Both the position numbers and the translations under genes were made by a program. A DNA stretch of 34,102 bases from Oleispira sp. (GTDB lineage: Bacteria; Pseudomonadota; Gammaproteobacteria; Pseudomonadales; Oceanobacteraceae), in NCBI GenBank assembly GCA_002708475.1, contig PAOL01000056.1, positions 19,135 through 53,236 of the forward strand, given 5' to 3'. A model generated the notes under the pieces. The model did no database searches and was not told where the DNA came from. It saw only the letters and a program-made list of their open reading frames with translations. Positions 1,873-27,713 of this stretch are shown piece after piece. The stretch's first letter is position 1; every line of letters starts with the position of its first letter.

Positions 1873-3033
1873 ATGGCTGCTAGAGCCCTGATTGCATTAT
1901 TAATGATGCCCCTTATCGCTTCTGCGTTAGAACGTCTGGATGATTTTAGTATGTCTGATGTTGTCGCTCAGGAAGGTGTTATTTTACGTTCCGAATATGA
2001 AATTGAAATTGATACAGTCCAATATTTCGATGAAGATGATTACGGCAATATCACAATGTCTGACATTAATTTTGCAACTCGATCGCAACAAGTTATTGAT
2101 TTGGATATCGTTTCAGGTGCTGTAGGCAGCAATCGAGAAGGGCGCAATGGTATTCGCTTTAGTAACCAAGAATTGCCTATCGATTTGTCCGTAGGAGCAG
2201 TTAAAGTAAACGGAAAATCTTTGGGTGGTCTTGGCATGAGGCACTTAGATACTGGTGGCGTAGATCCCTTGGTTGTTGATGTGTGGGCAGGGGGATTCGA
2301 TTTAAATGAAAACACAATTGCTGATGAATCGGGTTTCACAGTAGATGTGACAGTTCCTAAAGAAACCACTTACGATCTTTACTACACGGATGACGGCTCT
2401 GAGCTTTCAATGACGATAGATCATTGTTCGAGTTATTCCGCTGGTTCTTGTACTGCAGGCGGTATTGTATTTTCGGGTATGACTTTTGATGTAACGGATG
2501 AAGGTTTACGCATAGGTATTCCAGAAGTTGCTGGTGGGCAGATCAATATAAGAAATTTTAGATTAAACGAATCTGTCATTAATGATATCACCCTCAAAAA
2601 TTTTACTATTCCGACAGGGGGCTATTTTAATTTAGGTGCTCCTGATGTTGCCGCTGAGTCTGCTATTAATTTTGATGCTTACTTTGCTGCAGGTTCTGGT
2701 TTTGATTTTATTTATTACGATACTTCTGACACGGATGTTCAGGAATTTAATGCCACTATATCGTTCAACGCTTTGGCTTCTGATGCAAATACCGCAAGTA
2801 CTAATTACTTTTCTGTTCAAGACTCTTCTATAAATGTGCGCTCGGGTAGTGATAGTGGCATATATATCGCGTTAGGCGATGTAAGCACAGGAACAGGTGG
2901 TGTTCGAGGCAGTATGAGTATCAACGATATTATGTTGAAGCCAGAAGGCACTGCATCGGCTCCTGTTCTAGGGAGTATTAAAATGAACTTAGAAGTTCTC
3001 CCTGGTAGCTACCTTGAAGTGATGGGACATTAA
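1873..3033 (+). CDS. Exported protein of the block A family, with a divergent SGQSGI-type N-terminal motif
   Basis: RBS-like aaaggaa upstream. Signal peptide MAARALIALLMMPLIASA, then LERLDDFSMSDVVAQEGVIL. C-terminal PGSYLEVMGH. Stop is followed 2 nt later by the next ATG. Confidence 0.8.
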   Translation: MAARALIALLMMPLIASALERLDDFSMSDVVAQEGVILRSEYEIEIDTVQYFDEDDYGNITMSDINFATRSQQVIDLDIVSGAVGSNREGRNGIRFSNQELPIDLSVGAVKVNGKSLGGLGMRHLDTGGVDPLVVDVWAGGFDLNENTIADESGFTVDVTVPKETTYDLYYTDDGSELSMTIDHCSSYSAGSCTAGGIVFSGMTFDVTDEGLRIGIPEVAGGQINIRNFRLNESVINDITLKNFTIPTGGYFNLGAPDVAAESAINFDAYFAAGSGFDFIYYDTSDTDVQEFNATISFNALASDANTASTNYFSVQDSSINVRSGSDSGIYIALGDVSTGTGGVRGSMSINDIMLKPEGTASAPVLGSIKMNLEVLPGSYLEVMGH

Positions 3034-3035
3034 TT

Positions 3036-3872
3036 ATGAAAATACGGACTAAATTAAGCATTTTTTTTGGTTTTGTTACTTTATTGCCATTACATCACGC
3101 GCACGGAATGCAAAGTATTGAGGAAGAAAATTTGCGGTATGTTTCTGGCCAGAGTGGAATTGACGTTGATCTGAACTTCAAAGGAACTGTTGGTAGAACG
3201 TATCTTGAAACCGATGGAAATTCATTAAATATAAGAAATTTAAGTATCGACACGGATGGCTCGAATGATGATGCAGTTACTCCGGGATCGGACAGGCCTC
3301 TTAATATAATTTTAGATTTAGTTACTCGGGGAAAAAAATCTGGGTTAGCGATTTCTATCAGTGGAATTAATGATTTAGATCTGAAATTTGATCAGATCAA
3401 TGTGAATGGCGATACATCTTCGGACGATATCGTTGGACAGATGCACTCATTCGGTGGCTTAGCATTGAATAATATTAATGATCACGGTGGAATTACCGAT
3501 ATTAATATTTTTGCCCGCGGAGCAAGTGGTCAAGAAGGAATACAGCTAGAAGTAAATTTTCCTGAAACACTGAGTATGAACTTAGCCTATACCGATTACG
3601 GAGCTGATAATACAAGTTCGGTAGATGACTTCACCTTTGGTGGAGATTTAACATTAAATAATTTCAGTATTGCTAATTCTGTGGATTTAACAACGGGTAA
3701 AAATGCAGAAGGAGAAGAAGTCGGAGGGTTGCATGTTGGTGTAATTACTCAAACGGGTGATATGACTTTGAGTAATATTCGTGCGGGTAATCAGTTAGGG
3801 ACAATGGGGCGTTTAGTTATAAATGGCTACACCATGACCCCTGATAGTTACTTAACAATACAGGGTAAATAA
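3036..3872 (+). CDS. Exported SGQSGI-motif protein (DUF6160/FilA-like by eye)
   Basis: Signal peptide, then MQSIEEENLRYVSGQSGIDVDL. C-terminal PDSYLTIQGK. Tight operon spacing. Confidence 0.8.
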   Translation: MKIRTKLSIFFGFVTLLPLHHAHGMQSIEEENLRYVSGQSGIDVDLNFKGTVGRTYLETDGNSLNIRNLSIDTDGSNDDAVTPGSDRPLNIILDLVTRGKKSGLAISISGINDLDLKFDQINVNGDTSSDDIVGQMHSFGGLALNNINDHGGITDINIFARGASGQEGIQLEVNFPETLSMNLAYTDYGADNTSSVDDFTFGGDLTLNNFSIANSVDLTTGKNAEGEEVGGLHVGVITQTGDMTLSNIRAGNQLGTMGRLVINGYTMTPDSYLTIQGK

Positions 3873-3874
3873 TA

Positions 3875-4711
3875 ATGAAAAAAATAATCTGTATTTCTCT
3901 TATTGTTAGTGCAAATAGTTTTGCCTTATTGCCGATGCAGGATGATGATCTTTCTACTGTGTCAGGACAAAGTGGTATCACCGTTGATATAACTACAGAC
4001 TCCGACATAAAAGTTGGAGAAGTTCGATATGAAGATAAGGATAATGGTGCAGCTGAAAAAGATGGTGGAGGTTCTTTTTCATTACGAGATGTTGTTATTA
4101 AGGATAGTGAATTCTCTTTTGATATTGATGTATCAGATAGTGGTGAACTTGTGATGAGTCTCAATCGCTTTGGTGTTATGGATATATCTATAGATGCGCT
4201 TCAGTTTAATTATGATGATACGTTGAGTGAAATTAATCTTTTTTCGACTTCATCAGAAACTCAATTACAAAATCAATATAGCCGTTTAGGTTCTTTGGCG
4301 GTAAATGATTTTACCTTAGCGACAGGCTCCGAAATTACTTTTAAATTTACTTCAGACGGTGAGTTTGCGTTTACTGCTGGGCTGCTAACGGGCTCGTTCT
4401 TTCAATTTACATATATTGATGATGGCGAGTTTACTTATGATACTGCTAATGATGGTGATACAACACTTAACGATAATGAAGGTGAAAATTACATTTCTGC
4501 TCGAGTGGAATTTGAAGATTTCAAATTAAATGATGTCAAGCTGAAAGGTGAAGGCGTTGGTGAAGATTCGTATGTCGCAATGTCTTTGGGAGGAACTCAA
4601 GGTGCTGTGGTATTTAGAGATATTAATATCAACGGAAAAATTATTGGTAGCGCTGGGTTCGAAAATATTAGCGTTGATCCTGTTAGTTATTTACATATTA
4701 AGGGTCATTAA
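3875..4711 (+). CDS. Exported SGQSGI-motif protein (DUF6160/FilA-like by eye)
   Basis: Signal peptide MKKIICISLIVSANSFA, then LLPMQDDDLSTVSGQSGITVDI. C-terminal PVSYLHIKGH. Starts 2 nt after the preceding stop. Confidence 0.82.
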   Translation: MKKIICISLIVSANSFALLPMQDDDLSTVSGQSGITVDITTDSDIKVGEVRYEDKDNGAAEKDGGGSFSLRDVVIKDSEFSFDIDVSDSGELVMSLNRFGVMDISIDALQFNYDDTLSEINLFSTSSETQLQNQYSRLGSLAVNDFTLATGSEITFKFTSDGEFAFTAGLLTGSFFQFTYIDDGEFTYDTANDGDTTLNDNEGENYISARVEFEDFKLNDVKLKGEGVGEDSYVAMSLGGTQGAVVFRDININGKIIGSAGFENISVDPVSYLHIKGH

Positions 4712-4714
4712 GCA

Positions 4715-7700
4715 ATGCAAGCATTACTGATTATTAAACACATATTTTTATCTTTTATTATAAGTGCCATAACATTATCCTTCTCTAGTTTAGCGTTCTC
4801 GTACGATCCAGGATTAACTTATAAGCCAAGTCGTGATGACATATTAACCGCAGATATTGATGAATCAATGCAAGGTTGTGTCTATCGTGAAAGTGATGCA
4901 GGTACAGGGGATTGGACCGTTGATGACTGTGATTATGTTGGAGCACATTATGCTTGTTACAACGGTGCTGAATGGCAGGTTTCACAAGCACTAGGAACAA
5001 CGATTAATCCTGGAGAACCGCGTGACGGAAGTTCAGTTTTTAAAATCAAATCAGTGGATTCTTGGGATCCGACTAATGCAGATGTTTTATGTAAAGCTAA
5101 GTTTGGCCCTTCTTATTTTTTTAGTGTGCCAGTTACTGCTGAAGAAAATGAAGCTTTAGGTCGTGCAATTAGCGATATGACGGCAGCAAAGAAAAGAACT
5201 TGGGTTTATTACTACTCAGATACTGAAAACATTCCACTGAGTGAAAATTACTGGTTAGGAAATCGTACTCAATATACAAATTTATTAAGTGATAGTTCAG
5301 GCAATGCTGGAGATAGAGGTGTTGCAGACTGTACATTGATGAATCGAGATACAGGGCTGTGGCAGGATGCATCATGTTCTGAAACACATTCTTTTGCCTG
5401 CTATGATTCGGGAACTTGGCTAATAACAGCAGAGCAAGATGAATGGAAGGCAGGGTTTGCAATATGTGATGAAAATTATGGGCTTCAAACCCTATATGCA
5501 GTACCTAGAGATAGTGTTGAGAATAGTGCGATTGCAGCCGCGGTACTGCCATCAGGGGGAACTGGGGTTTCTGCGGATTATAATAAAGTATGGTTGAATC
5601 GAACGGATTTAGCATTTGAAGAATTCTTTATTTCAAACCAAACCCGTCAAGCTTGGTGGGGTGAAGGCCAACCAAGTAATCGTAATAATTCGGATTGTGC
5701 ATTAATTGATTCTGCAGGTAATTGGATTGCAGAGAGTTGTAATGGTTATGTTGCATATCATGCTTGTTATTTAGGTGATAGCTCAACAGGAGTCGCACAG
5801 TGGCAGCTAACAAAAGACGTTCCTGATTTAAAAATGTCAGAATTTGCTCTAGGTTTTGGTTACTGTAAGCAATTGCCTGATAACCCGCATGCAGAATATA
5901 GACCTCCTAACTCTGCAATTTCAAATAATGCCTTGGCGGCTTTATTATCACCTGGTGAGTATGTATGGATTAATTACAGTGACCAAGTGAGTGAGGGCTT
6001 CTGGAAAGTATCTAGTCAGTTTGAAGATTTTGTTAGTACTGGAGATGTTTTAGACGGTGATGCTGAAGACTGTGGCTACTTTAGTTTAAATACAGACAGT
6101 AAAAGAAATTGGTTGGCAGGGCAGTGCTATGCAGGTGGTGAGCCTTTAACCCAAGGCTTTGCTTGTACGAACGGTTATGAGTGGAAAGTTGCTACAACAT
6201 CGCTAAGCGATGGCTCTTCTTTAGAATCAGATCTTTGGAAGGATGGTTTTACAGCCTGTGAAGCTGCATTTGGGAAAGATTATGAGTTTGCTGCACCTTA
6301 TGATGCCGATCAGAACTCACGCTTATCATTAGCGTTAAGATTATCTGGCAATACACAGGCATGGATGAATTTAAATGATGCTGAGTCAGAAGGTGAATGG
6401 GTTTCTAATGGTCCTGTTGTAAATTTATCTCCGGTTATTGTTTCATTATCATCGGAGCGCATATTTCCTGAAAATACAGATATCCAATTATCAGTAACTG
6501 CGGAAGATCCAGAAAGTGCAAGTAATGTTGGATTAATCTATTCGTGGTCGATCGTCGATCAACGAATGGGTATTGAAGGTACAGGCACAGACACGATTAC
6601 ACCATTAGACCAAACAGATATAAGTTACGACCCTTTGGCTACACCGAATGAAGTGACCTTGTCGAAAACGAAACTTCAACTATTGAATGATGATTATTAT
6701 ATCGATCTTCAACTTCAAATAACGGATGCAGACCAACAGACCCCGGCAACAACGACAAAGATTATAACCATTAAAGTTAAGTCACCGTTGAGAGCGGCTT
6801 ATGATTTTAATGAATATACAAATCCTAACTTGGATACTAGTGGTAATGGTCACGATCTGATACTTGATAAATCCCAGGTAGAGATAATTTCATATGAGGG
6901 TAACTCTAATAATTACTTTGCAAAATTGGATAGTGCCGACTCTTTTTCGATCGATGGTTCTTCTGGAGGATTACAATTAGACAGTGTTAAAGATCAATAT
7001 ACGTTAATTTATCGTTTTAGATTAGATGCACTTCCTGTGAGTGCATTTGCGGGTTTTGTGCAGAAAGGTGATCCGCAGGTTCGTCAGCCGGCAATATTCT
7101 TTGATAAAAATGCGCAGCAGATTCATTTTTCTAATAGTACAACGAATGGATTTAATCAGGCGCAAAATAGTATTGAAAGCGTACGAATTGGACAGTGGAT
7201 GACAGTGGCCTATGTTAAAAATGGGCCTCAAGTTGAATTCTATATTGATAAAGCAGAATTAAATTTATCATCTCCAGATCCGGCTCCACTTAATGATGAA
7301 ATTCGCGACAGTGTTCAGAGTCTAGTGGGAGCTTCACTTGGCTATGATTCTGGAGATTGGGTATTTGGTGCTATCTCTGATGCGGGAGAGGGAATGACGG
7401 GTGGATTGGATGATATCCGTATTTATGATCGTGCTTTAACAGCTGCTGAACTTGCAACTATTTTTCCTAGTCAGCCTAGGGGCGTATTTGAATTTACCAA
7501 TGAAATAGCTGCGGGAGATGAAAATGAAATCAATAATTCGGTAAATGAAGTGCTAGTTCCGGTTAGTCGTGTAGAGGGCGATGACGGTATCGTTTCAGTT
7601 GAATATTCTCTGGAGTCTGGAAGTGCTGAGTTGGATGTGGATTTCAGATTGAAAGATGATGTTGGCGTTGGTTCAGAACGAGGCAAAGGTGTATTAACTT

Positions 7701-9946
7701 GGCTCGTACATGATGCGGAAGATAAAAATATTATCGTTGAGTTAATTGGCGATGATCTTCGTGAAGGAACAGAAACATTTTCTATTGAGCTTGCACAATT
7801 ACCAACAGAGCCTGCATTAGGTTCTGATACAAAAATAGATATCAATATTACGGACAAAACGCCTAATCCTTATGGAGCAATTGGTTTCGCGCCCATTACA
7901 GCAACGGATAATATTGCCGTTCAAGAAGGTGACTCTGGACTAATTACGGTTGAGCGAGTCGGTACAGATTTACAAGGTAGTTTTGATGTTCTTTATGAGA
8001 TTGAAGCTTTAACTGCACATAGTCCTGATGACTTTTCAATTGATACTCAAGCAGGCTATGTATCAACAGGTGCTTCTGGGGTTAACACTATTATTGGTAA
8101 TGGACGCTTGAGTTTTACAGAGGCACTCGGACAGATAAGACAAACGCAAACAATAAGTTTTACTTCAGTATTAGAAGGAATTCCTACTCCAGAATTTGAT
8201 GAGTATTTTTCAGTTAAATTACTGGGAGTGACAGATCCTGGCAGTTCAACGTTGGCAACGCCTGCAACCAGTGCAATCTTGGGAACTAATAAATTCTATA
8301 CTCAGATTATTCAAGATAAAACGATTGGTAGAATTAGCTTTGAAAGTGCGAGCTATTCTGCAAATGAGATTAACCAGGGGGGGCAAGAAAATGTGCTACT
8401 TGTGAAATTTCAGCGTCTTGATGGGGATGATGGCGATCTATGTATTACCTTGAATCAAGCCGGGAGTGCCACGGAGACAGTTGATTATACCGTAGATTAT
8501 TTAAACCCTTCAGCTAGCGGGAAAAGTGATATTTATTGGGCAGATAAGGATGCTGCTGATAAAGCGATACAAGTAACCATTATTGATGATGGTGCTTATG
8601 ATCCAAGTGAAGATATTACACTTTCTTGGGTTGTCGAGAATACTTGTAATGGTATTGCGACGGATGTTCCTGATGGGTCAGAGGCTTCGGATGTTGTCGA
8701 AACAACTATTTCGATTGCTGATTATACCACGCCTATCACCGTTAAGTTTACGGAAACGAGTTATAGCGTTTCTGAAACGATCGCAACTGGGAAGAAAGAA
8801 GTCACTGTATTGGCGACTCAAACAGATTTCTTAAATCCTGTGAATAACAATACTTTTGAAGTGTTTTTAAATCGAGGAACTGGATCTTCAGCGATTGAGG
8901 GCCAGCACTACGGTGATTTAAGTAGTCTAGAAAAAATAACATTTAATGCTGGTGAAACACAGAAAACGATTGAAATCCCTATTCTGGATAACTGTGATGC
9001 AGCGGCGAGTTTATCTTTAGAGATGGCTTTAGTGAATAATGATGTCTCTCTTATGAATAGTTTGCCTGCAAGTTTAATTGATGTCTCTAGTGCGAATAGT
9101 TCTTTAGAAATTTTGGAGGGTACTATTCCTGTTGCTGTTTCAGCAGCGGTATCAACGGTTGGAGTAACTGATGCAGCAAATTTATCTGGTGGCAATTATA
9201 TTGTAACGGGTAATGGCACAACAAGTGGTGGCTTCTCATCGAAAAAACTTAAGTTGGAATCAACAAACACAACAGGAGACGGTTGCGCACTTGCCTATGA
9301 ATGGGAGTATGTTGATGCTGCTCCTTCATTACCTAAGGCCGGGGTTGGTAATGCTGGTTCCTCATTGCCATCAAACTTTTCATCATTTGCTCACGTTGCA
9401 GGCAATAATGTTAGTACTTCAAGCGAGGTTGGTGAATTTACCTTGCCGTTTATCGTTGAAGATACAGCTTTGAATTATGTACTTAAAGTTAAGCATCCTG
9501 AGCAAGTTCAGCAGACAGTTAATATAGCAGTACCAATAGCGGCAAACTGGAGTCGTGTAAAAAATGATCGAGGCTGGTGTACAAATATTGATGGTACTAC
9601 GATCGGGACAAGTAGTACTTGCTCTGCAAGTACATTGAGAAACTTTATTTTTAATCCTGCGACTAAGCAAGTCATTGGACAATCCTTATACGGTGGTGAT
9701 TATGGCTGCTGGCAAGCCATTGATAGCAATGATGGTAATGTCTTGTACCGAGCTTGTAGCGGTGAAGCTCGACAAGTTATAACTTTCTTGGGTGACGATG
9801 AAAACGACAATATGCAGTCTAGCGATGGTCGTGATCTTGTTGATACAAATAATCTTTTCTTAGGAGAGCGGGGATTGAGATCACTAAGTGACGGGAACTC
9901 TGGTGGTCAAAGTGGTGCGCGTAAGCATTGGTTCTGGGTGAATTAA
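4715..9946 (+). CDS. Large exported multidomain protein: tandem C-type-lectin-like repeats, Ig/PKD-like segment, LamG-like domain, Calx-beta-like repeats, Cys-containing C-terminal domain
   Basis: 1743 aa with an N-terminal signal sequence (IFLSFIISAITLSFSSLAFS). CTLD signatures such as 'VWLNRTDLAFEEFF...WWGEGQPSNRNNSDCALIDSAGNWIAESCNGYVAYHACY'. LamG-like 'AYDFNEYTNPNLDTSGNGHDL...GGLDDIRIYDRALTAAELATIF'. Calx-beta-like 'ISFESASYSANEINQGGQENVLLVKFQRLDGDDG...'. Confidence 0.85.
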   Translation: MQALLIIKHIFLSFIISAITLSFSSLAFSYDPGLTYKPSRDDILTADIDESMQGCVYRESDAGTGDWTVDDCDYVGAHYACYNGAEWQVSQALGTTINPGEPRDGSSVFKIKSVDSWDPTNADVLCKAKFGPSYFFSVPVTAEENEALGRAISDMTAAKKRTWVYYYSDTENIPLSENYWLGNRTQYTNLLSDSSGNAGDRGVADCTLMNRDTGLWQDASCSETHSFACYDSGTWLITAEQDEWKAGFAICDENYGLQTLYAVPRDSVENSAIAAAVLPSGGTGVSADYNKVWLNRTDLAFEEFFISNQTRQAWWGEGQPSNRNNSDCALIDSAGNWIAESCNGYVAYHACYLGDSSTGVAQWQLTKDVPDLKMSEFALGFGYCKQLPDNPHAEYRPPNSAISNNALAALLSPGEYVWINYSDQVSEGFWKVSSQFEDFVSTGDVLDGDAEDCGYFSLNTDSKRNWLAGQCYAGGEPLTQGFACTNGYEWKVATTSLSDGSSLESDLWKDGFTACEAAFGKDYEFAAPYDADQNSRLSLALRLSGNTQAWMNLNDAESEGEWVSNGPVVNLSPVIVSLSSERIFPENTDIQLSVTAEDPESASNVGLIYSWSIVDQRMGIEGTGTDTITPLDQTDISYDPLATPNEVTLSKTKLQLLNDDYYIDLQLQITDADQQTPATTTKIITIKVKSPLRAAYDFNEYTNPNLDTSGNGHDLILDKSQVEIISYEGNSNNYFAKLDSADSFSIDGSSGGLQLDSVKDQYTLIYRFRLDALPVSAFAGFVQKGDPQVRQPAIFFDKNAQQIHFSNSTTNGFNQAQNSIESVRIGQWMTVAYVKNGPQVEFYIDKAELNLSSPDPAPLNDEIRDSVQSLVGASLGYDSGDWVFGAISDAGEGMTGGLDDIRIYDRALTAAELATIFPSQPRGVFEFTNEIAAGDENEINNSVNEVLVPVSRVEGDDGIVSVEYSLESGSAELDVDFRLKDDVGVGSERGKGVLTWLVHDAEDKNIIVELIGDDLREGTETFSIELAQLPTEPALGSDTKIDINITDKTPNPYGAIGFAPITATDNIAVQEGDSGLITVERVGTDLQGSFDVLYEIEALTAHSPDDFSIDTQAGYVSTGASGVNTIIGNGRLSFTEALGQIRQTQTISFTSVLEGIPTPEFDEYFSVKLLGVTDPGSSTLATPATSAILGTNKFYTQIIQDKTIGRISFESASYSANEINQGGQENVLLVKFQRLDGDDGDLCITLNQAGSATETVDYTVDYLNPSASGKSDIYWADKDAADKAIQVTIIDDGAYDPSEDITLSWVVENTCNGIATDVPDGSEASDVVETTISIADYTTPITVKFTETSYSVSETIATGKKEVTVLATQTDFLNPVNNNTFEVFLNRGTGSSAIEGQHYGDLSSLEKITFNAGETQKTIEIPILDNCDAAASLSLEMALVNNDVSLMNSLPASLIDVSSANSSLEILEGTIPVAVSAAVSTVGVTDAANLSGGNYIVTGNGTTSGGFSSKKLKLESTNTTGDGCALAYEWEYVDAAPSLPKAGVGNAGSSLPSNFSSFAHVAGNNVSTSSEVGEFTLPFIVEDTALNYVLKVKHPEQVQQTVNIAVPIAANWSRVKNDRGWCTNIDGTTIGTSSTCSASTLRNFIFNPATKQVIGQSLYGGDYGCWQAIDSNDGNVLYRACSGEARQVITFLGDDENDNMQSSDGRDLVDTNNLFLGERGLRSLSDGNSGGQSGARKHWFWVN

Positions 9947-9966
9947 GAGCTTTCGCAAAGACAGGG

Positions 9967-10003
9967 TAAAGATGTTGTACAATCGTGCCACATCTTTATA
10001 TTA
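9967..10003 (+). terminator. Possible weak terminator or stem-loop after the giant gene
   Basis: TAAAGATGT (9967-9975) pairs with ACATCTTTA (9990-9998), 14-nt loop. The 3' side is AT-rich with no clean U tract. Confidence 0.4.
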
Positions 10004-10074
10004 TGTTTGTGCTGATATTTAGATATCACAATTGAAAATATAAAAATAATAATATTCAGAGTAAGAGCGATTCT

Positions 10075-11211
10075 ATGAAGAAACTCGTTTTACATTATAT
10101 CAATCTCCCTTTTCTGCTAGGCGCTTTAAGTATTCCAAGCTATGCGCTTGAAGCTATGGATGATAGTGAATTGTCATCGACTACGGGTGAAGGTATTGGT
10201 GTGATAGTCGATAACTTGTCAATTCATAGTGAAGACAAAGGTACTCCTGGGGATTTTGAGATTGTTTTAGATTTAAGTGACACACCCAATCAAGATCAAT
10301 TCATTTTTAGCGAGCTAAGAATACATAAAACAGGAACGGTTTCTGGTACTGCAGAGTCCGGTGGTAACTTCGGCACGGTTGATAACCCTGTCTTTTTAGG
10401 TGATTTGAGAGCGGCTGAAGTATTTACAGGAAATGCTAATGACATTACTGATTCAACGGTGAGCGTCACTAGTGTTATGCGATCTGAATTTCCTGGAGCG
10501 AATTTAACACAGCTGGATCGATCCACTAAAAGACAAAAAGCTAACCTTGCGGGGTATCTAGAAGCAGCAGCCAATTTTGAAGCAGATCTAGCTCAAGTGT
10601 CTGATAAATTCACTGCGCACGTGCGCTTCGATGATTTAATTGGCGGCACTTCTAATAATTTTCGCGCAGTCATCGATATAGAAGGCTTTCGTTTTTATGG
10701 TACTTATTCAGATATATTTGCAACAGCAGGGCATGGTGTTTCTATAGCCGGTGCAACAGGTGTTTATATTGATGAGTTAACAATTTCGACGGCATTACCT
10801 ACGGTTGCGAGTAACCAAGCGGCTGTCGATAACAATGATTATGTTACAACTCCAGTTGATAGCAGGCTGACTTTTTCAGGTATAGATATTTACACAACAT
10901 TAGGAACTTATGACCAGCCGCTGACCCTTGATAATGTTAAGGATGAGGCGGGGAATAATCAGCTCCAAATAGAAATATCACCTTTGCCTGCATCTGTTGG
11001 GATTGCACCCAAGAGTAATATATTTGTGAAAAGTATTTATTTTGGCGAGCAGTATAATTCAGAACTGAGAACGGGATTAAGAGATGGGGCAATCTCAGGC
11101 AGTACTAACCCAGAAGATTATCATTATGCTTTTCAGCCTGATGTCGGTAATACTCTAGAAATTCGCGGAATGGAAGTTCAGCATCTTCGTATTACCACTA
11201 TGGATATTTAA
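10075..11211 (+). CDS. Exported protein of the block A family, divergent motif
   Basis: Signal peptide ending PSYA, then LEAMDDSELSSTTGEGIGVIVDNLSI, parallel to MQDDDLSTVSGQSGITVDI. Confidence 0.75.
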   Translation: MKKLVLHYINLPFLLGALSIPSYALEAMDDSELSSTTGEGIGVIVDNLSIHSEDKGTPGDFEIVLDLSDTPNQDQFIFSELRIHKTGTVSGTAESGGNFGTVDNPVFLGDLRAAEVFTGNANDITDSTVSVTSVMRSEFPGANLTQLDRSTKRQKANLAGYLEAAANFEADLAQVSDKFTAHVRFDDLIGGTSNNFRAVIDIEGFRFYGTYSDIFATAGHGVSIAGATGVYIDELTISTALPTVASNQAAVDNNDYVTTPVDSRLTFSGIDIYTTLGTYDQPLTLDNVKDEAGNNQLQIEISPLPASVGIAPKSNIFVKSIYFGEQYNSELRTGLRDGAISGSTNPEDYHYAFQPDVGNTLEIRGMEVQHLRITTMDI

Positions 11212-11224
11212 CAGGTATATAAAA

Positions 11225-11713
11225 ATGATAAATAAATTATATCTTGTAATCGTTTTCTCTTGCTCACTAGTAATGACCAGCGCTGCTGAACTAATACCTG
11301 TTGATGATGCCGATTTAAATCAAGTTTCGGGCAGAAGTGGGATTACACTTAACGCAAAAATTATTTTAGGAGATGAAAGTAGCTTTGTTTTTACTAATAC
11401 ATCCGGTAAAAAAATTGCAGACGCAACACTGGATGAAACAGGTTATTTGATCGTAGATAAAATTCAAGGTGAGCTGGAAATGGAAGGCTTAGCTTTTGAT
11501 TTAGTCTCAGGCTTAAAGAACTCTGGTAAATCTGCTTTGCAGTGGACACTACCGAGTAAAATTAAGGCTACTAATTTGAAAACGACGGGTATTTATATTT
11601 CTAGTACAGAAGAAGTTACCCCAACCACAAGTACATTCTTGCTAGGCTTAGAATTAAATGGCGAATTAAGCTTGCCGGCTAGCACCCAAGTCTCTTTATT
11701 TGTAGTGGATTAA
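11225..11713 (+). CDS. Exported SGQSGI-motif protein, short
   Basis: Signal peptide, then LIPVDDADLNQVSGRSGITLNAKI. 162 aa. Confidence 0.75.
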   Translation: MINKLYLVIVFSCSLVMTSAAELIPVDDADLNQVSGRSGITLNAKIILGDESSFVFTNTSGKKIADATLDETGYLIVDKIQGELEMEGLAFDLVSGLKNSGKSALQWTLPSKIKATNLKTTGIYISSTEEVTPTTSTFLLGLELNGELSLPASTQVSLFVVD

Positions 11714-15071: not shown

Positions 15072-15100
15072 CTGTAACAAAGATGTCATAAAACTGTAGT
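15072..15100 (+). promoter_or_regulatory. Candidate PHO box (three 7-bp repeats, 11-bp period)
   Basis: CTGTAAC (15072-15078) aaag ATGTCAT (15083-15089) aaaa CTGTAGT (15094-15100), 47 nt upstream of the TonB-dependent receptor ATG. Resembles consensus CTGTCAT-N4-CTGTCAY. Confidence 0.72.
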
Positions 15101-15147
15101 AACTTGCTCTCAAATAAATTTGAAGTGAAATTTCTTTGGGGTAAGTT

Positions 15148-18265: not shown

Positions 18266-18283
18266 TTGTCACATAATTGTAAT
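18266..18283 (+). promoter_or_regulatory. Candidate PHO box (two 7-bp repeats)
   Basis: TTGTCAC (18266-18272) ataa TTGTAAT (18277-18283), with TAAACT (-10-like) starting exactly 10 nt later at 18294, upstream of the lipoprotein gene. Confidence 0.5.
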
Positions 18284-18351
18284 TATTAAACCATAAACTA
18301 AGTTCAGTCATAAAAAACAGTGACCTTTTCTAAATAAATAGAGAGAGAATT

Positions 18352-20015: not shown

Positions 20016-20066
20016 CTGTCATTTTTCTGAAACCATTCTGACATTATTTAGCAACTAAATTGTAAT
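20016..20066 (+). promoter_or_regulatory. Upstream PHO-box-like array (five positions on an 11-bp period)
   Basis: CTGTCAT (20016) tttt CTGAAAC (20027) catt CTGACAT (20038) then weak TAGCAAC (20049) and TTGTAAT (20060), each start exactly 11 bp apart. Confidence 0.55.
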
Positions 20067-20076
20067 CTTTTAAATG

Positions 20077-20105
20077 CTGTAACCTTCTTGTCATATTCCT
20101 GATAT
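20077..20105 (+). promoter_or_regulatory. Promoter-proximal candidate PHO box
   Basis: CTGTAAC (20077-20083) cttc TTGTCAT (20088-20094) attc CTGATAT (20099-20105). -10-like TATTAA starts 10 nt downstream (20116). 80 nt upstream of the DUF3450 gene. Confidence 0.68.
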
Positions 20106-20185
20106 ATCTTGTTTCTATTAAATTAACAGTGGGTCACTTATGAATGAGTGGCTTGTATTTTTAGATTCGAAACGGTGATTATGCA

Positions 20186-21034
20186 ATGCGTACTCAACAT
20201 ACATCTGTAAAAACAAAATTTTTAAAGAGTAGCATCGCAGCTATTCTTCTTACTTCGGGAGCCTTATTCACAGCCCCTTCCGCCTGGTCATCCGATACAG
20301 CGTTAACATCTGTATTAGAAAAGGGTGAACAACGTGCCGATAAAGCGGTTAAATCACAACTTAAAATAGACTCTATCGATGCTGATATTCGTGGTGCTGA
20401 GCGTGAATATCGAGGTGTTAGCAAAGAGGTAGAAGGTCTTGAAGTTTATATCAAACAATTGAATAAGCAGCTAGCCGCTCAAGAGTCTGAAAAAACAGAT
20501 ATTGAAAACAGCATTCGCCAAGTCACTTTAATTGAACGTCAAATCACACCTTTAATGCTACGTATGATTGATGCGTTAGATCGTTTTGTTTCAGCCGATA
20601 TTCCATTCCAGAAAACAGAGCGAATGGCTAGAGTTGAGATGCTAAAAGATTTAATGGGTCGTTCAGACGTTACTGTGGCTGAAAAGTACCGAAAAGTAAT
20701 GGATGCCTATCAAAAAGAAATGGATTATGGGCGAACGATTAAAACCTATCGCAGCACAATCAATCTTGCAGGAACAGAACGTGAAGTGGATTTTTTACGT
20801 GTCGGTCGCCTAAGTTTAATGTTTCTATCTTTAGATGGTGAAAGCTTGGGTATTTGGGATCAACAAAGTAAAGAGTGGGAGCCACTAGAGGGCGACTATA
20901 AGGGTAAATTAATTGGTGCTTTACGTATTGCGCGTGAACAGGCAGCGCCTAGTCTTATGAAAATTCCTGTTGCAGCTCCATCAAAATCTACTTTCACACC
21001 TAACTCCAATGTTGCTTATGGGGAAGTTAAATAA
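20186..21034 (+). CDS. DUF3450-like exported coiled-coil protein, TonB2-cluster associated
   Basis: Signal peptide, long helical region, 'ADIPFQKTERMARVEMLKDLMGRSDVTVAEKYRKVMDAYQKEMDYGRTIKTY...LRVGRLSLMFLSLDGESLGIWDQQSKEWEPL', typical of DUF3450 proteins upstream of TtpC/ExbB. Confidence 0.85.
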   Translation: MRTQHTSVKTKFLKSSIAAILLTSGALFTAPSAWSSDTALTSVLEKGEQRADKAVKSQLKIDSIDADIRGAEREYRGVSKEVEGLEVYIKQLNKQLAAQESEKTDIENSIRQVTLIERQITPLMLRMIDALDRFVSADIPFQKTERMARVEMLKDLMGRSDVTVAEKYRKVMDAYQKEMDYGRTIKTYRSTINLAGTEREVDFLRVGRLSLMFLSLDGESLGIWDQQSKEWEPLEGDYKGKLIGALRIAREQAAPSLMKIPVAAPSKSTFTPNSNVAYGEVK

Positions 21035-22479
21035 TGAACACTCTATCTACGTTTAAAACGGTTAATAAAGCTAAAAAAATCGCGTTAGGTTTATGCATCA
21101 GTTTTACCGCATCGGTTGCTTCAATAGTACCTGCTCATGCAAATCAAGACATTGATGTTGATTCGTTACTGAATTTAGTTAAACAAGGTCAGGCGCGTGA
21201 TGATAGTGAGTTTAATTCTCGCATACAGCGCTTTAATACGAATAAGCAGCAACAAGAAAAAATGCTGCTTCAAGCAAAAAATAAACGTACTTCTCTTGAA
21301 AATGAAAGTGAAGAAAAAGAAGCGAGTTTTGCAAAGAATGAAACAGATCTTGCAGATGCACAAGAACGTTTAACTAACCGTTTAGGTAGTCTAAAAGAAT
21401 TGTTTGGTGTTCTTCAGCAAGTTGCTGGTGATAGCAAGGGGATTTTTGAAGGTTCATTAATTACTTCAGAATTGAATGAAAATTCTTCAACAGCAGGGCG
21501 TGAAATCTTCTTAGAAGATTTAATTAAGACAGCCGGTTCAAGTTCTAAGTTGCCTTCAATAGAAGAATTAGAACAGCTTTGGTTTGAAATGCAGCGTGAA
21601 ATGACCATGTCGGGTAAGGTTTCTAGCTATCAAGCGGATGTGGTTTTGCCAACGGGTGATACTGTTAAGAAGCAAGTAGTTCGACTAGGTAGCTTCAACG
21701 CCGTTGCCGATGGAAACTATCTTACTTTTGATTTGGAATCTCAGAAATTAGTAGAACTAGCAGCCCAACCAGGTAATCGATATAACGGCCCAGCGGCTGA
21801 TTTAGAATCAGCTGAAATGAAGGAAGGTAAAACAAACTTTACAGGGTTTTGGATCGATCCTTCTCGTGGCCAGTTATTAAAAATCATGGGGCAGTCTGCT
21901 GGCTTAGGCGAACGTATTGATCAAGGTGGAGTTGTTGGCTATATCATTCTGTCTCTGGCTGTTATCGGTGTGTTATTAGCAATTTGGAGAATGATTAAGT
22001 TAACAGCTGAAACAGCGCGTATGAAGAAACAAATGAACTCAGATGTTGCGAGTGATGATAATGCGTTAGGTCGTGTTATGAAGGTTTATCAGAAAAATGG
22101 CGATGCTGATGTTGAAACGTTAGAGCTTCATTTAAGTGAGGCAATTTCTTCAGAAGTACCTAGCCTAACTCGTGGCGTTAACTGGATCAAAATCATCTCT
22201 GTTGTTGCACCGCTATTAGGATTGTTGGGAACGGTAACTGGGATGATTGATGTATTCGAAACTATGTCGTTATTCGGAACAGGAGACCCTAAGTTAATGG
22301 CCGGTGGTATTTCACAAGCCTTGATTACAACGGTGTTAGGCCTTGTTGCAGCGATTCCTTGTGTATTTCTTCATACCATGACTAATAATCGCAGCCGAGC
22401 TTTGATTACGATTTTAGAAGAACGCGCGACGGGGATTCTTGCGCGTAAATCAGAACAGCTATCACTAGCGAAGGCTTAA
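21034..22479 (+). CDS. ttpC: TtpC-like MotA/TolQ/ExbB proton-channel protein with long periplasmic coiled-coil N-terminus
   Basis: Signal peptide, coiled coil ('NTNKQQQEKMLLQAKNKRTSLENESEEKEASFAKNETDLADAQERL'), C-terminal ExbB signature 'ISVVAPLLGLLGTVTGMIDVFETMSLFGTGDPKLMAGGISQALITTVLGLVAAIP'. Overlaps the previous stop. Confidence 0.88.
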   Translation: MNTLSTFKTVNKAKKIALGLCISFTASVASIVPAHANQDIDVDSLLNLVKQGQARDDSEFNSRIQRFNTNKQQQEKMLLQAKNKRTSLENESEEKEASFAKNETDLADAQERLTNRLGSLKELFGVLQQVAGDSKGIFEGSLITSELNENSSTAGREIFLEDLIKTAGSSSKLPSIEELEQLWFEMQREMTMSGKVSSYQADVVLPTGDTVKKQVVRLGSFNAVADGNYLTFDLESQKLVELAAQPGNRYNGPAADLESAEMKEGKTNFTGFWIDPSRGQLLKIMGQSAGLGERIDQGGVVGYIILSLAVIGVLLAIWRMIKLTAETARMKKQMNSDVASDDNALGRVMKVYQKNGDADVETLELHLSEAISSEVPSLTRGVNWIKIISVVAPLLGLLGTVTGMIDVFETMSLFGTGDPKLMAGGISQALITTVLGLVAAIPCVFLHTMTNNRSRALITILEERATGILARKSEQLSLAKA

Positions 22480-22484
22480 TCGAT

Positions 22485-23003
22485 ATGTTTACTGCTATAG
22501 ATCAGGTTACTTTATTTATGGAGCGTGGCGGCGATGTATTGTATGCCTTGCTGTTAGTGATCTTCTTATTATGGCTTTTCATTTTAGAGCGCATCGCGTT
22601 TTTCTCTTTCACATATCGCCCGCAGCTTAAACAAGCTGTTGGCGAGTGGGAAGGGCGAAAAGAACGCACTTCATGGCATGCGCACCAAGTTAGAGAAGAT
22701 CTAACGAGCCAAGTAAGAATGGCGTTAGAAACGAATATGACAACGATTAAAATGTTGGTCGGTCTATGTCCTTTGTTTGGTTTGTTAGGCACGGTAACGG
22801 GCATGATCGAAGTATTCGATATCATGGCTTTTCTTGGTAGTGGTAGCCCTAAGGCAATGGCTTCTGGAATTTCAAAGGCAACTATTCCCACAATGGCGGG
22901 CATGGTTGGCGCGATAACCGGTGTATTTGCTTTGTCGTTATTACAACGTTATATCCAACGCCAAAAAGCTCAGCTTGAAGATAAAATGACGTTTGACCAT
23001 TAG
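22485..23003 (+). CDS. exbB: ExbB-family biopolymer transport protein
   Basis: 'LVGLCPLFGLLGTVTGMIEVFDIMAFLGSGSPKAMASGISKATIPTMAGMVGAITGVF'. Confidence 0.94.
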   Translation: MFTAIDQVTLFMERGGDVLYALLLVIFLLWLFILERIAFFSFTYRPQLKQAVGEWEGRKERTSWHAHQVREDLTSQVRMALETNMTTIKMLVGLCPLFGLLGTVTGMIEVFDIMAFLGSGSPKAMASGISKATIPTMAGMVGAITGVFALSLLQRYIQRQKAQLEDKMTFDH

Positions 23004-23038
23004 ATTATTGTTTTGAAAATTTAAAAGAGGGTAAAGGT

Positions 23039-23449
23039 ATGAGACGCGGATTCTCAAACTTGGCAGCACAGACAGAAGAAGATGGTATTGATATCACACC
23101 AATGCTCGATGTTGTTTTTATTATGTTAATTTTCTTTATTGTTACGGCATCGTTTGTAAAAGAATCGGGCATTGAAGTTAATCGTCCTGATGCAAGTACT
23201 TCAAGTGCTAAACCAAAAGCCAGTATTTTGGTTGCAATTAATGATCTAGGTGAAATTTGGATCAATAAACGAAAAATTGATGAAGGCCAAGTACGAGCTA
23301 ATATTGAACGCCTGCACGCAGAAAACCCACAAGGTACGGTGGTTATTCAAGCAGACGAAGAAGCAAAAACTAAAACGTTGGTTGCAGTAATGGATGCTGC
23401 AAGAGAAGCTGGCGTTGTTGATGTATCCCTGGCTACAGAGAAGAAATAG
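23039..23449 (+). CDS. exbD: ExbD-family biopolymer transport protein
   Basis: 'DGIDITPMLDVVFIMLIFFIVTASFVKESGIEVNRP'. Confidence 0.95.
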   Translation: MRRGFSNLAAQTEEDGIDITPMLDVVFIMLIFFIVTASFVKESGIEVNRPDASTSSAKPKASILVAINDLGEIWINKRKIDEGQVRANIERLHAENPQGTVVIQADEEAKTKTLVAVMDAAREAGVVDVSLATEKK

Positions 23450-23450
23450 C

Positions 23451-24122
23451 ATGGTATCGACAGGTGAAAACCCGATAAGTCACTCCCCATCGATTCAAGC
23501 TACATTAACTCGTTGGGTCATTGCTCTGCTAGTAGCCACCTTTGCTACTTTCAGCGTATTTTGGATGATGCAGGGCTTAATTTCTTCAGGTAACTCGGTC
23601 GTTAATGAAGAAAGTTTTGGCCGTTTAATCGAGTTTGTTGATGTCTCGCAAGATGACGATGTACAAACTAAGCAGAATAAAGTTAATAAGCCACCAACGC
23701 CACCTGCCGAGCCGCCAAAGCCTGAATTACCTAAACCAAATGTTCAAGCGCAATCGGCAAACTCTTTTGATATTGGTGCAATTGATCTTTCGGCTGACTT
23801 AAATATTGATGCTGGTTTAGCAGGATCGGGTGGTGATGGGGAATTTTTACCTATCGTAAAAGTAGCACCACAATATCCAAGGCGCGCATTGCAGAAAGGT
23901 ATTGAAGGCCATGTGACGGTTGAGTTTACGGTAACTGCATTAGGTACAGTGGTTGACCCTAAGGTGATTGATGCTAATCCACCGACTGTTTTTAATCGCG
24001 CTGCTATGAATGCAGTAAAAAAATTCAAATACAAACCTAAAATAGTGGATGGTAAAGCGCAAGCGGTGACAGGTGTGCGTAACATTATTCGGTTTGAGTT
24101 AGATAAAAGTAGTAAGAAATAA
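23451..24122 (+). CDS. tonB: TonB energy transducer
   Basis: ATG at 23451, 1 nt after the exbD stop, preferred over the track start 23394. N-terminal TM, Pro-rich 'KPPTPPAEPPKPELPKP', C-terminal TonB domain 'PIVKVAPQYPRRALQKGIEGHVTVEFTVTALGTVVDPKVIDANPPTVFNRAAMNAVKKFKYKP'. Confidence 0.94.
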   Translation: MVSTGENPISHSPSIQATLTRWVIALLVATFATFSVFWMMQGLISSGNSVVNEESFGRLIEFVDVSQDDDVQTKQNKVNKPPTPPAEPPKPELPKPNVQAQSANSFDIGAIDLSADLNIDAGLAGSGGDGEFLPIVKVAPQYPRRALQKGIEGHVTVEFTVTALGTVVDPKVIDANPPTVFNRAAMNAVKKFKYKPKIVDGKAQAVTGVRNIIRFELDKSSKK

Positions 24123-24156
24123 ATTAAAGAGCTAATTGTGAAGGCTGGAGTTCATA

Positions 24157-25578
24157 ATGAAAGCAATGAAATTAAATAGAATGAATTTAAGTACTAAGCA
24201 CTCTAAAAATGTACTGTCGTCTTTACTGCTCACTACTTGTATAGGTATGTCAGTTGTAGCCTCGCCTGTTGTGCTTGCTGAAACGACTGCGACTGATAGT
24301 TCAAGCGTTAAAAATAGTTCGAGCGCAAAGAACAGCTCAGTCTCAGGTAATAACGAAGTTGTAAAAAAGAAGAAACGTGTACGCCGTGCGCAAACTATGC
24401 GACCAAAAGTATTTAAGAAATTAGATAAAGTTCGTGAACTTTCAGATGCAAAGGATTATGAAGGTGCAATTTCTGCTTTAGAAAGTTTATCTAAAATGAA
24501 GCGTAATTCTTACGAAACGGCCATGACCTGGAATATGTATGCTTATATGTATTTCAATAAAGAAGATTATGGTTCAGCGGCTGAAGCGTATGAGAAAATA
24601 ATCTCAGGAAAACGAGTTCCTGAAAGTTTGATGCAAACCACCCTGTATAGTTTGGCTAAACTGTATTTGATTCAACAAAAATATACGCTGGCTTTGGAGT
24701 CTCTTAATCATTGGTTTGAGGTTGTTGAAAAACCTAGTGCACAATCTTATATATTGCGTGCTCAGGTTTATTATCAGCTAGAAAATTATAAAAAAGCTTT
24801 GCCAGATGTGAAGCAGGCAATATCAAACACCGTTGCACAAGGTAAAAAACCTCGTGAAAATTGGTTGTTAATGGAACGCGCTGTTTATTTTCAAAACAAA
24901 GATTATGTATCGATGGAACGTTGTTTGAAGGATTTGATTGCTTATTATCCTAAATCGGCTTCAGTCGCTCAGTACTGGGTACAGCTATCTGCTATTTACA
25001 ATGAGTTAGGCAAGTCAGAGTTAGAGCTATCAACCCTAGAAACAGCTTATGAGCAAGGGTTGCTCACAAAAGAAGAGCAGCTAGTAAACTTAGCGCAAGC
25101 GATGCTTGGAAAAGAAATTCCCTATAAGTCGGCGCAGATAATGTTGATGGGAATGAAAAATAAGCACATTGAAGAGAATGCAAAAAATCTTTCACTTCTG
25201 GGTGACGCCTTAATGCTTGCAAAAGAATATGAGCAAGCAATTTCTGTCATGGCTAAAGCGGCAGGTTTATCGGATTCAGCTAAGGACTATTATAAGTTAG
25301 CTCAGATTCATACAGAGCGACAAGAATGGAATGATGCCTTAGTAAATGTAGATAAAGCTATTGAAAAGAATGATGTAAGCTCAAAGCAAGCGATTAAAGT
25401 AAATGAAGCTAGAATCCTTAAAGGCTTAGTCTTGTTTAATATGAAAGATCTGCTATTAGCCAAGGCCGAGTTTGAACTAGCATCTGAGTCTACTGGAACT
25501 GAGAAAATGGCGGGTCAGTGGTTGACATACATCGCGAGTGAAGAAAAGAGAATGGCTTTCTTAGCAGGGTCAGAATAA
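24157..25578 (+). CDS. TPR-repeat exported protein of the TonB2 cluster
   Basis: Signal peptide, Ser/Asn/Lys linker, repeated TPR-like units ('ETAMTWNMYAYMYFNKEDYGSAAEAYEKII', 'AQSYILRAQVYYQLENYKKALPDVKQAI'). Confidence 0.85.
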   Translation: MKAMKLNRMNLSTKHSKNVLSSLLLTTCIGMSVVASPVVLAETTATDSSSVKNSSSAKNSSVSGNNEVVKKKKRVRRAQTMRPKVFKKLDKVRELSDAKDYEGAISALESLSKMKRNSYETAMTWNMYAYMYFNKEDYGSAAEAYEKIISGKRVPESLMQTTLYSLAKLYLIQQKYTLALESLNHWFEVVEKPSAQSYILRAQVYYQLENYKKALPDVKQAISNTVAQGKKPRENWLLMERAVYFQNKDYVSMERCLKDLIAYYPKSASVAQYWVQLSAIYNELGKSELELSTLETAYEQGLLTKEEQLVNLAQAMLGKEIPYKSAQIMLMGMKNKHIEENAKNLSLLGDALMLAKEYEQAISVMAKAAGLSDSAKDYYKLAQIHTERQEWNDALVNVDKAIEKNDVSSKQAIKVNEARILKGLVLFNMKDLLLAKAEFELASESTGTEKMAGQWLTYIASEEKRMAFLAGSE

Positions 25579-25654: not shown

Positions 25655-25844
25655 GTTTTTAATTGTTAATTAATGGGATGTTTAACAGCGTGTTAATAAT
25701 TAATACATAAAAGAATTGTAGTATGCGGTTTCTAAATTAATAAGCGCATAGATCACATAGAGAATGAGTGTCGTGTTCTTTTGAGCTAGTAATAACCAGA
25801 AATGTTTGTACAAAATAACTCTTAGTATTAGTTGGATTTTAATT

Positions 25845-27713
25845 ATGACACTTAAAACAGATTTAACTCGCCGTTCTTTTATAAAATCTGCAGCCGCTGG
25901 CGCTGGTGCAGTCGCGGTTCCTATGGCGATCACTGGTTGTGGTGGTGATGATAATGATGACTCTTTGTCGTTATCTGATTCTAAACTTGTTGTTGCTTTT
26001 GGGCACGGCGTGGCTTCAGGCGATCCTTTATCTGATCGAGTGATTGTATGGACGCGTGTGACGCTTACTGATGATGATATTGCGGCTGATAAATCAGTAC
26101 CGGTTGAATGGAAAGTCGCTACTGATGAAACGATGACCAATATCGTGTCTTCTGGAATTACAGAAACAAATTCAGATGTCGATTACACTGTAAAAATTGA
26201 TGCTGAAGGATTATCACCAAATACTACTTATTATTATCAATTTACGGGTCCTCTAGAAGTAACGACGGATGTTGGTCAAACTAAGACTTTGCCAGTAGGC
26301 TATGTTGAGAGTGTTAAGTTAGCGGTGTGTTCTTGTGCTAATTACCCTGCGGGTTACTTTAATGTTTATCAGGCAATCGCACAGTCCGACGCTGATGTTG
26401 TTATTCATCTTGGTGATTACATTTATGAATACCAAACTGGCGTATATCCGGTAATTTCAGTTGCAGGTCGTGCACCAGATGAATTATCAGAAGTGATAAC
26501 ACTTGATCAATATCGTGGACGCTATGCTCAATATCGTATTGATGAAAAAGCACAGCTAGTTCATAAAACTAAACCTTTTATTTGTGTTTGGGATGATCAT
26601 GAATTGGCTAATGATTCATACACTGATGGTGCTGAGAATCATAATGAAGGCGAAGGTGATTACGCTGATCGTAGAGCGGCCGCTTTTCAGGCTTATCATG
26701 AGTGGTTACCTATTCGCACAGATTCAAATATTGAAAAAATATATCGTAACTTTAAATTTGGCGAACTAGTTTCATTGAATATGCTAGACACTCGCCATAT
26801 CGCGCGTGATCAATCAATTTCAACGACTGATTTATTAACCTCTACAGATGCAACTGCTTTGTTGATGGATTCTACCCGTCGCTTAATTGGCGATGAGCAG
26901 TTGTCTTGGCTAGTACAGGAATGGACTAACTCAAGTACAACATGGGAGGTTTTAGGGCAGCAGGTGCTAATGGGGCGTATGTTTGTTCCCGTTGAACTAT
27001 TACTTTCTCTGGGGGCCTTAATCGCTAAGTTAGAGGCAGGCTTAGATGCTTCGACTGAGCAGATTGCTGTTAATACAGCTATTGGCGAGTTATATGCGTT
27101 AAAACTGCGTTTGAATGCTGGCGACCCTACACTGACTGATGCTGAAAAGCTAAGATTGTCGTCAACAGCGCCTTATAATTTAGATGCTTGGGATGGTTAT
27201 TTTATTGAACGTGAGCGAGTTCTTCAGGGAGCCGACTCATTGAATAAAAATATAATTACTTTGGCAGGTGATACACATAATGCTTGGGCAAGTGATTTGC
27301 ATGTTCTTGATCAGGTAACGGGTGAACTAAGTGAGAGTTCTATTGGTGTTGAGTTCGCAACATCTTCTGTTACTTCACCTGGATTTGATCAATATTTAGC
27401 ACTTGAAGCCGCTGATAAAATTGGTTTTGAGAGCTCGGTTATCGCTTTGATTGACGACTTGAAGTACATGGATTCAAATCGTCGAGGTTTCTTAGAAGTA
27501 ACGTTTACACCGGATGTTGCAACAGCGCAATGGAACTTCATTGATGACGTTACCGTGAATGAGAGTATCTCTGACACAATTACAACGAATAGCAGTTATA
27601 TTGAGCTGGCAGCCGATGGTATGACGCCAGTGGCTAAGGCTGCTAAATTTGAGGTATATCCATACAGTTCAGGTCGTTCTGATGCGAATACCTTGATCCC
27701 TGTAATTGAGTAA
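25845..27713 (+). CDS. phoD: PhoD-like phosphatase/phosphodiesterase, Tat-exported
   Basis: Start at 25845 (MTLKTDLTRRSFIKSAAAGAGAVAVPMAITGC) preferred over 25806 because it places the Tat motif correctly. PhoD-type metallophosphatase motifs: 'FGHGVASGDPLSDRVIVWTRV', 'HLGDYIYEY', 'FICVWDDHELANDSYTDGAENH', 'LAGDTHNAWASDL'. Confidence 0.93.
   Translation: MTLKTDLTRRSFIKSAAAGAGAVAVPMAITGCGGDDNDDSLSLSDSKLVVAFGHGVASGDPLSDRVIVWTRVTLTDDDIAADKSVPVEWKVATDETMTNIVSSGITETNSDVDYTVKIDAEGLSPNTTYYYQFTGPLEVTTDVGQTKTLPVGYVESVKLAVCSCANYPAGYFNVYQAIAQSDADVVIHLGDYIYEYQTGVYPVISVAGRAPDELSEVITLDQYRGRYAQYRIDEKAQLVHKTKPFICVWDDHELANDSYTDGAENHNEGEGDYADRRAAAFQAYHEWLPIRTDSNIEKIYRNFKFGELVSLNMLDTRHIARDQSISTTDLLTSTDATALLMDSTRRLIGDEQLSWLVQEWTNSSTTWEVLGQQVLMGRMFVPVELLLSLGALIAKLEAGLDASTEQIAVNTAIGELYALKLRLNAGDPTLTDAEKLRLSSTAPYNLDAWDGYFIERERVLQGADSLNKNIITLAGDTHNAWASDLHVLDQVTGELSESSIGVEFATSSVTSPGFDQYLALEAADKIGFESSVIALIDDLKYMDSNRRGFLEVTFTPDVATAQWNFIDDVTVNESISDTITTNSSYIELAADGMTPVAKAAKFEVYPYSSGRSDANTLIPVIE

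Follow-up and report, generated by a model that had tools for sequence, protein, structure and literature searches.

A predicted PhoB-driven promoter of a TonB2-type energiser operon linked to receptor and lipoprotein genes in Oleispira

The 34,102-nucleotide stretch of Oleispira sp. DNA analysed here (the window) contains a TonB2-type energiser operon preceded by CTGTCAT-like 7-bp direct repeats 11 bp apart, the arrangement that defines a PHO box. In all probability, this region is a phosphate-starvation promoter of the operon that would be driven by PhoB, with a TonB-dependent receptor and a surface lipoprotein induced alongside (Table 1). We infer PhoB binding and induction at low phosphate from the motif, its geometry, its conservation, a pattern common to this operon and pstS, and the linkage of the genes. 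On the same sequence grounds, PhoB control of the whole receptor/lipoprotein/energiser unit appears very likely.

Table 1. Position of the promoters, genes and other elements in the window
Feature	Position	Strand	Remarks
Receptor promoter	15072..15105	+	CTGTAAC-AAAG-ATGTCAT, 10 nt, TAACTT; score 16.0; conserved before relatives' receptors
TonB-dependent receptor, 1034 aa	15148..18252	+	Plug and CarboxypepD_reg domains (Pfam)
Lipoprotein promoter	18266..18299	+	TTGTCAC-ATAA-TTGTAAT, 10 nt, TAAACT; score 15.5
Predicted surface lipoprotein, 526 aa	18352..19932	+	Lipobox LAAC
Distal array	20016..20066	+	One 11-bp register; units at 20016, 20027 and 20038 strong, at 20049 weak, and at 20060
Core PHO box, in place of -35	20077..20094	+	CTGTAAC-CTTC-TTGTCAT; score 16.0 with -10; conserved in relatives
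CTGATAT	20099..20105	+	Likelier spacer plus first -10 base; no good half-site there in 14 relatives
Predicted -10, TATCTT	20105..20110	+	10 nt after core PHO box
Stem-loop in predicted 5' leader of operon mRNA	20129..20156	+	About 12 nt after predicted start
TonB2-type energiser operon	20186..25578	+	DUF3450 (TtpB-like), TtpC-like, ExbB, ExbD, TonB, TPR (TtpD-like); Pfam
PhoD-type phosphatase gene	25806-27713		Downstream of TonB operon

Genes and PHO boxes in the window

The operon has the six-gene order DUF3450-TtpC-ExbB-ExbD-TonB-TPR by which TonB2-type systems are defined (PMC6957404); its second product, TtpC-like, is a MotA_ExbB protein (Pfam). A LysR regulator gene lies upstream of it on the same strand, alongside the receptor and lipoprotein genes. 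The receptor is TIGR01782-like, with a score under the TIGR01782 cut-off, and the lipoprotein has zero matches in Pfam and NCBIfam. The lipoprotein gene ends directly before the array at what is probably a terminator, an inverted repeat with a T-run after it. A search upstream of the phoD and LysR genes found no PHO box, and the PhoD-type phosphatase may be expressed via read-through from the operon or under different control. Elsewhere in the window (1873-11713), a predicted surface-protein cluster comprises a 1743-aa protein, which carries C-type lectin, Laminin_G and Calx-beta domains, and four surrounding DUF6160 proteins, three of them in tandem and one at a greater distance.

The earlier note described the array as up to eight half-site-like units in two clusters, and all eight are present, with the strict 11-bp period that it gave. 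The distal cluster comprises CTGTCAT (20016-20022), CTGAAAC (20027-20033), CTGACAT (20038-20044), TAGCAAC (20049-20055) and TTGTAAT (20060-20066), which have 7, 4, 6, 2 and 5 matches of 7 to CTGTCAT, respectively. The proximal cluster comprises CTGTAAC (20077-20083), TTGTCAT (20088-20094) and CTGATAT (20099-20105), with 5, 6 and 5 matches of 7, and is correctly described as offset by 17 bp from the distal one (20060 to 20077). Seven of the eight are retained as half-site-like units, the weak one at 20049 (2/7) solely on a register conserved in relatives; the sequence at 20099 is better read as spacer plus -10.

The best repeat period among those of 7 to 15 bp is 11. The top three 11-bp triplets on both strands of the 34-kb window begin at 20016 (17/21), 20077 (16/21) and 15072 (16/21). 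All three are on the + strand and the - strand has none of at least 16/21, whereas 100 dinucleotide shuffles yield a mean of 0.01 such triplets per strand, so the permutation test that had been proposed for the array came out in its favour. A core-promoter score was also computed for pairs of half-sites at 11-bp spacing with a -10-like hexamer 10 nt further along, using half-site weights consistent with the published E. coli PhoB consensus, CTGTCAT-N4-CTGT(C/A)A(C/T) (PMC3465305). Scores of at least 15 occur at just three sites of the window (20077, 15072 and 18266; shuffle expectation, 0.017), all on the + strand, and each precedes one gene of the receptor/lipoprotein/TonB2 cluster. Boxes before the lipoprotein gene occur in the same place in several relatives.

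Core promoter of the TonB2-type operon

The core PHO box replaces the -35 element and is followed about 10 nt downstream by a -10, as in other PHO-box promoters. The promoter weights were fixed after some relatives had already been seen, a bias that is avoided if the -10 is ignored in selecting the box: YAnnnT then occurs at exactly 10 nt in 25 of the 30 TonB2-operon promoters, and every other spacing in at most 6 of 30. At the position of 20105, TAnnnT is found in all 14 non-redundant relatives. The earlier note had instead proposed three proximal units followed by a -10 TATTAA (20116-20121). Although TATTAA does lie 10 nt after CTGATAT, this geometry scores 13.0 versus 16.0 for the core, the TATTAA position is not conserved among relatives, and position 20099 has a good half-site in 0 of 14 non-redundant relatives. 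Since the 10-nt spacing prevails among the promoters, TATCTT rather than TATTAA is taken as the -10; the three-unit geometry is highly improbable, and neither its hexamer nor its third unit is retained.

Scanning for sigma70 -35/-10 pairs revealed no ordinary promoter, which is in line with the expectation for a PHO-box promoter. Fur control of the operon was considered and rejected: the best Fur match (11/19) does not exceed what shuffles give. Likewise, the layout of the P. aeruginosa PUMA3 promoter, with a pho box upstream of a separate -35 and -10, is not present here, because the short distance between the core box and the -10 leaves no space for a separate -35.

The core promoter closely resembles that of E. 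coli pstS, in which CTGTCAT-like direct repeats recur at 11 bp, the last full box lies at -35 and the -10 stands exactly 10 nt downstream (checked in E. coli genomes). In pstS, however, four units share one unbroken register, whereas the Oleispira distal units are shifted from the core, and the gene controlled is that of a phosphate transporter rather than a TonB energiser. The four 11-bp units of pstS also show that long arrays, such as the one described in the earlier note, are not exceptional in themselves.

The stem-loop in the predicted leader has counterparts in most relatives, at a similar distance from the predicted start and with differing sequences. Leader stem scores average 14.2 in relatives versus 10.95 (sd 0.5) in shuffles, and the element is possibly a conserved mRNA-stabilising or regulatory hairpin.

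Conservation, paralogues and the distal array

DUF3450 homologues were found in 51 of 58 genomes searched and form two groups: orthologues of the window gene, with 53-82% identity, and paralogues, with about 40% or less. Boxes are present in nearly all of 30 orthologue upstream regions and in none of 18 paralogue TonB2-type operons. In 24 related loci, core matches number 51 on the operon strand and 0 on the other. Counts from relatives are not independent because ancestry is shared, but neither the asymmetry between strands nor the contrast with paralogues depends on such independence. The Oleispira genome itself contains a second DUF3450/TtpC operon (L003, L035, contig C12); PHO boxes are absent from it and from the corresponding operons of relatives.

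In most genomes the three units sit side by side, with the lipoprotein gene between the receptor gene and the TonB operon. In G017, as in G011, the receptor and the TonB operon lie apart, and both keep their boxes in G017. The clearest boxless orthologue (L026) belongs to a genome, G025, in which no receptor match was found either, an absence that is not certain because the assembly is fragmented. In a class-wide sample of 274 genomes, two from other families (G266 and G196) are the only ones among those checked that have the receptor and lipoprotein beside the operon, and boxes are present in each; none occurs at those unlinked operons for which scoring was possible.

The five-unit register at 20016 scores 24/35, and no shuffle out of 1000 made from the upstream 350 bp does as well. 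In four same-genus (Oleispira-like) genomes, this one and three relatives, the distal units make up the top-scoring five-unit upstream register, with 24, 22, 22 and 27 of 35 and shuffle frequencies of 0 to 0.004. In the alignment, the two weak units of the window, 20049 and 20060, correspond to TTGCCAT and TTGTCAT in G004. Distal units recur across much of the family. In other genera, the distal triplet is mostly positioned at -27, -16 and -5 relative to the core, which makes its last unit (-5) share 2 bp with the core box; the window, with its 17-bp shift, has no such overlap. These comparisons indicate that the distal array is real and old. Several relatives have no recognisable distal array, and it is thus not essential.

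The role of the distal array is the least certain part of our reading. Its sites may act in support of the core box or in competition with it; assistance to the core is favoured, and cooperative PhoB loading at the array is plausible. A somewhat unlikely alternative is a PhoB-activated promoter in which the array does not help and PhoB bound in the shifted or overlapping register serves as a buffer or negative site. The overlap seen in most other genera, which prevents the last distal unit and the core from both being filled, would agree with this, as would the window shift, which is about half a helical turn out of register, and the repressing weak extra PhoB sites known at E. coli phoB (PMC6194859). 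However, the clusters do not overlap in the window genome, and extra in-register units are found at E. coli pstS, a strongly PhoB-bound promoter (PMC3465305).

Regulator, related systems and proposed function

The genome encodes PhoB, PhoR, PstC, PstA, PstB and PhoU. Two proteins are above the PhoB family cut-off (L062 5645-6340 and L063 7016-7720, on contigs C50 and C24, respectively). The gene of one adjoins phoR and pst genes; that of the other adjoins ubiA and has a PHO-like box of its own (L062:5573, contig C50).

The strict box pattern alone has 4 matches in the genome, 2 of them in the window and 2 near or inside unrelated genes. A more specific whole-genome pattern, consisting of the box, 10 nt and part of the -10, has 9, 8 and 8 matches in three genomes; a few of these are probably chance, because reversed-pattern controls give 2, 1 and 1. 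In all three genomes, the pattern precedes pstS, a porin, a GNAT acyltransferase (possibly an ornithine-lipid enzyme), the receptor and the TonB2 operon, while a second PstS-like gene is preceded by it in two genomes and the lipoprotein gene likewise in two. The proteins downstream of the pattern were named by Pfam for one member each and by sequence resemblance for the others. A cognate PhoB/PhoR pair is encoded, and the same site occurs at pst genes.

It is improbable that the sites are read mainly by another regulator of the OmpR family, or by just one of the two PhoB-like proteins (C50/C24), in which case the signal might not be simple phosphate starvation. This idea draws on the two proteins that pass the PhoB cut-off and on the many response regulators of the OmpR family in the genome; against it, the pattern precedes pstS in three genomes as well as a phoB gene here, and the site sequence is that of the published PhoB consensus (PMC3465305). 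The probability that the sites are random matches in AT-rich intergenic sequence is negligible: single half-sites are frequent, with about 1.2% of random positions being good, but the shuffle tests, the strand asymmetry, conservation and the paralogue controls contradict this explanation. Motif statistics, the retrieval of pstS, conservation and co-segregation with the receptor instead uphold the central claim of the earlier note, a PHO-box array controlling the DUF3450/TonB2 operon, with PhoB as the predicted regulator.

Under this PhoB-driven reading, low phosphate would lead through PhoR to phosphorylated PhoB (PhoB~P), which would bind the core PHO box at 20077-20094, standing in for the -35, and recruit sigma70 RNA polymerase to the -10 TATCTT at 20105-20110. 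Additional PhoB on the distal array (20016-20066) would probably raise occupancy at low PhoB~P. PhoB would also drive the receptor (15072) and lipoprotein (18266) promoters; since one regulator would drive all three, the receptor, the lipoprotein and a private TonB motor would be induced together when phosphate is scarce. A possible and more tentative extension is that a dedicated phosphate-starvation TonB machine, in which PhoB governs receptor, surface lipoprotein and six-gene TtpB/C/D energiser alike, occurs across one marine family of the Gammaproteobacteria and in no fewer than two others, and that its promoter responds to PhoB~P in a graded or biphasic manner owing to two PhoB registers that overlap or are half a helical turn apart.

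Components of this scheme are known from other bacteria. In P. aeruginosa PUMA3, a PhoB-bound pho box controls exbB2D2-tonB4 (PMC4971064); the Oleispira box is likewise predicted to be PhoB-bound and to control an ExbB-ExbD-TonB set. PUMA3, however, also requires sigma-VreI and has its pho box upstream of a separate -35/-10, whereas the Oleispira box itself occupies the -35. The Vibrio vulnificus TonB2 operon (TtpB/TtpC/ExbB/ExbD/TonB/TtpD) and TonB3 share the six-gene order, with DUF3450 first and TPR last, and a receptor gene also opens the TonB3 operon (PMC6957404). Regulation by iron and a predicted Fur box are described for Vibrio TonB2 (PMC6957404), whereas the Oleispira operon has PHO boxes and no Fur box above shuffles.

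In Caulobacter, the PhoB regulon includes several receptors (PMC11208175), and ElpS is a phosphate-starvation-linked surface lipoprotein beside a TonB-dependent receptor, CC0171 (PMC2996285). The Oleispira lipoprotein, which also adjoins a TonB-dependent receptor, resembles ElpS by setting only (receptor linkage and lipobox). The Caulobacter genes, in contrast, are next to type II secretion genes, and cc0171 is reported to be expressed alike in rich and poor media.

In the open literature searched, no DUF3450/TtpC TonB operon is described as being under PhoB control. The promoter is thus of a known type, and what is new is its placement on a TonB system not reported as PhoB-controlled in the literature searched. 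TonB2-type systems that include TtpB/C/D have been described in iron uptake, and one lineage of them is here tied to phosphate starvation; the tie rests on promoter and gene linkage, and a paralogue in the same genomes has no such tie. The shifted distal array provides a natural test of the effect of extra PhoB units. The association also makes the roles of otherwise unnamed proteins (DUF3450, the lipoprotein and the receptor) accessible to testing, and it suggests TonB-driven import in which the cargo would be a phosphorus compound too large for porins.
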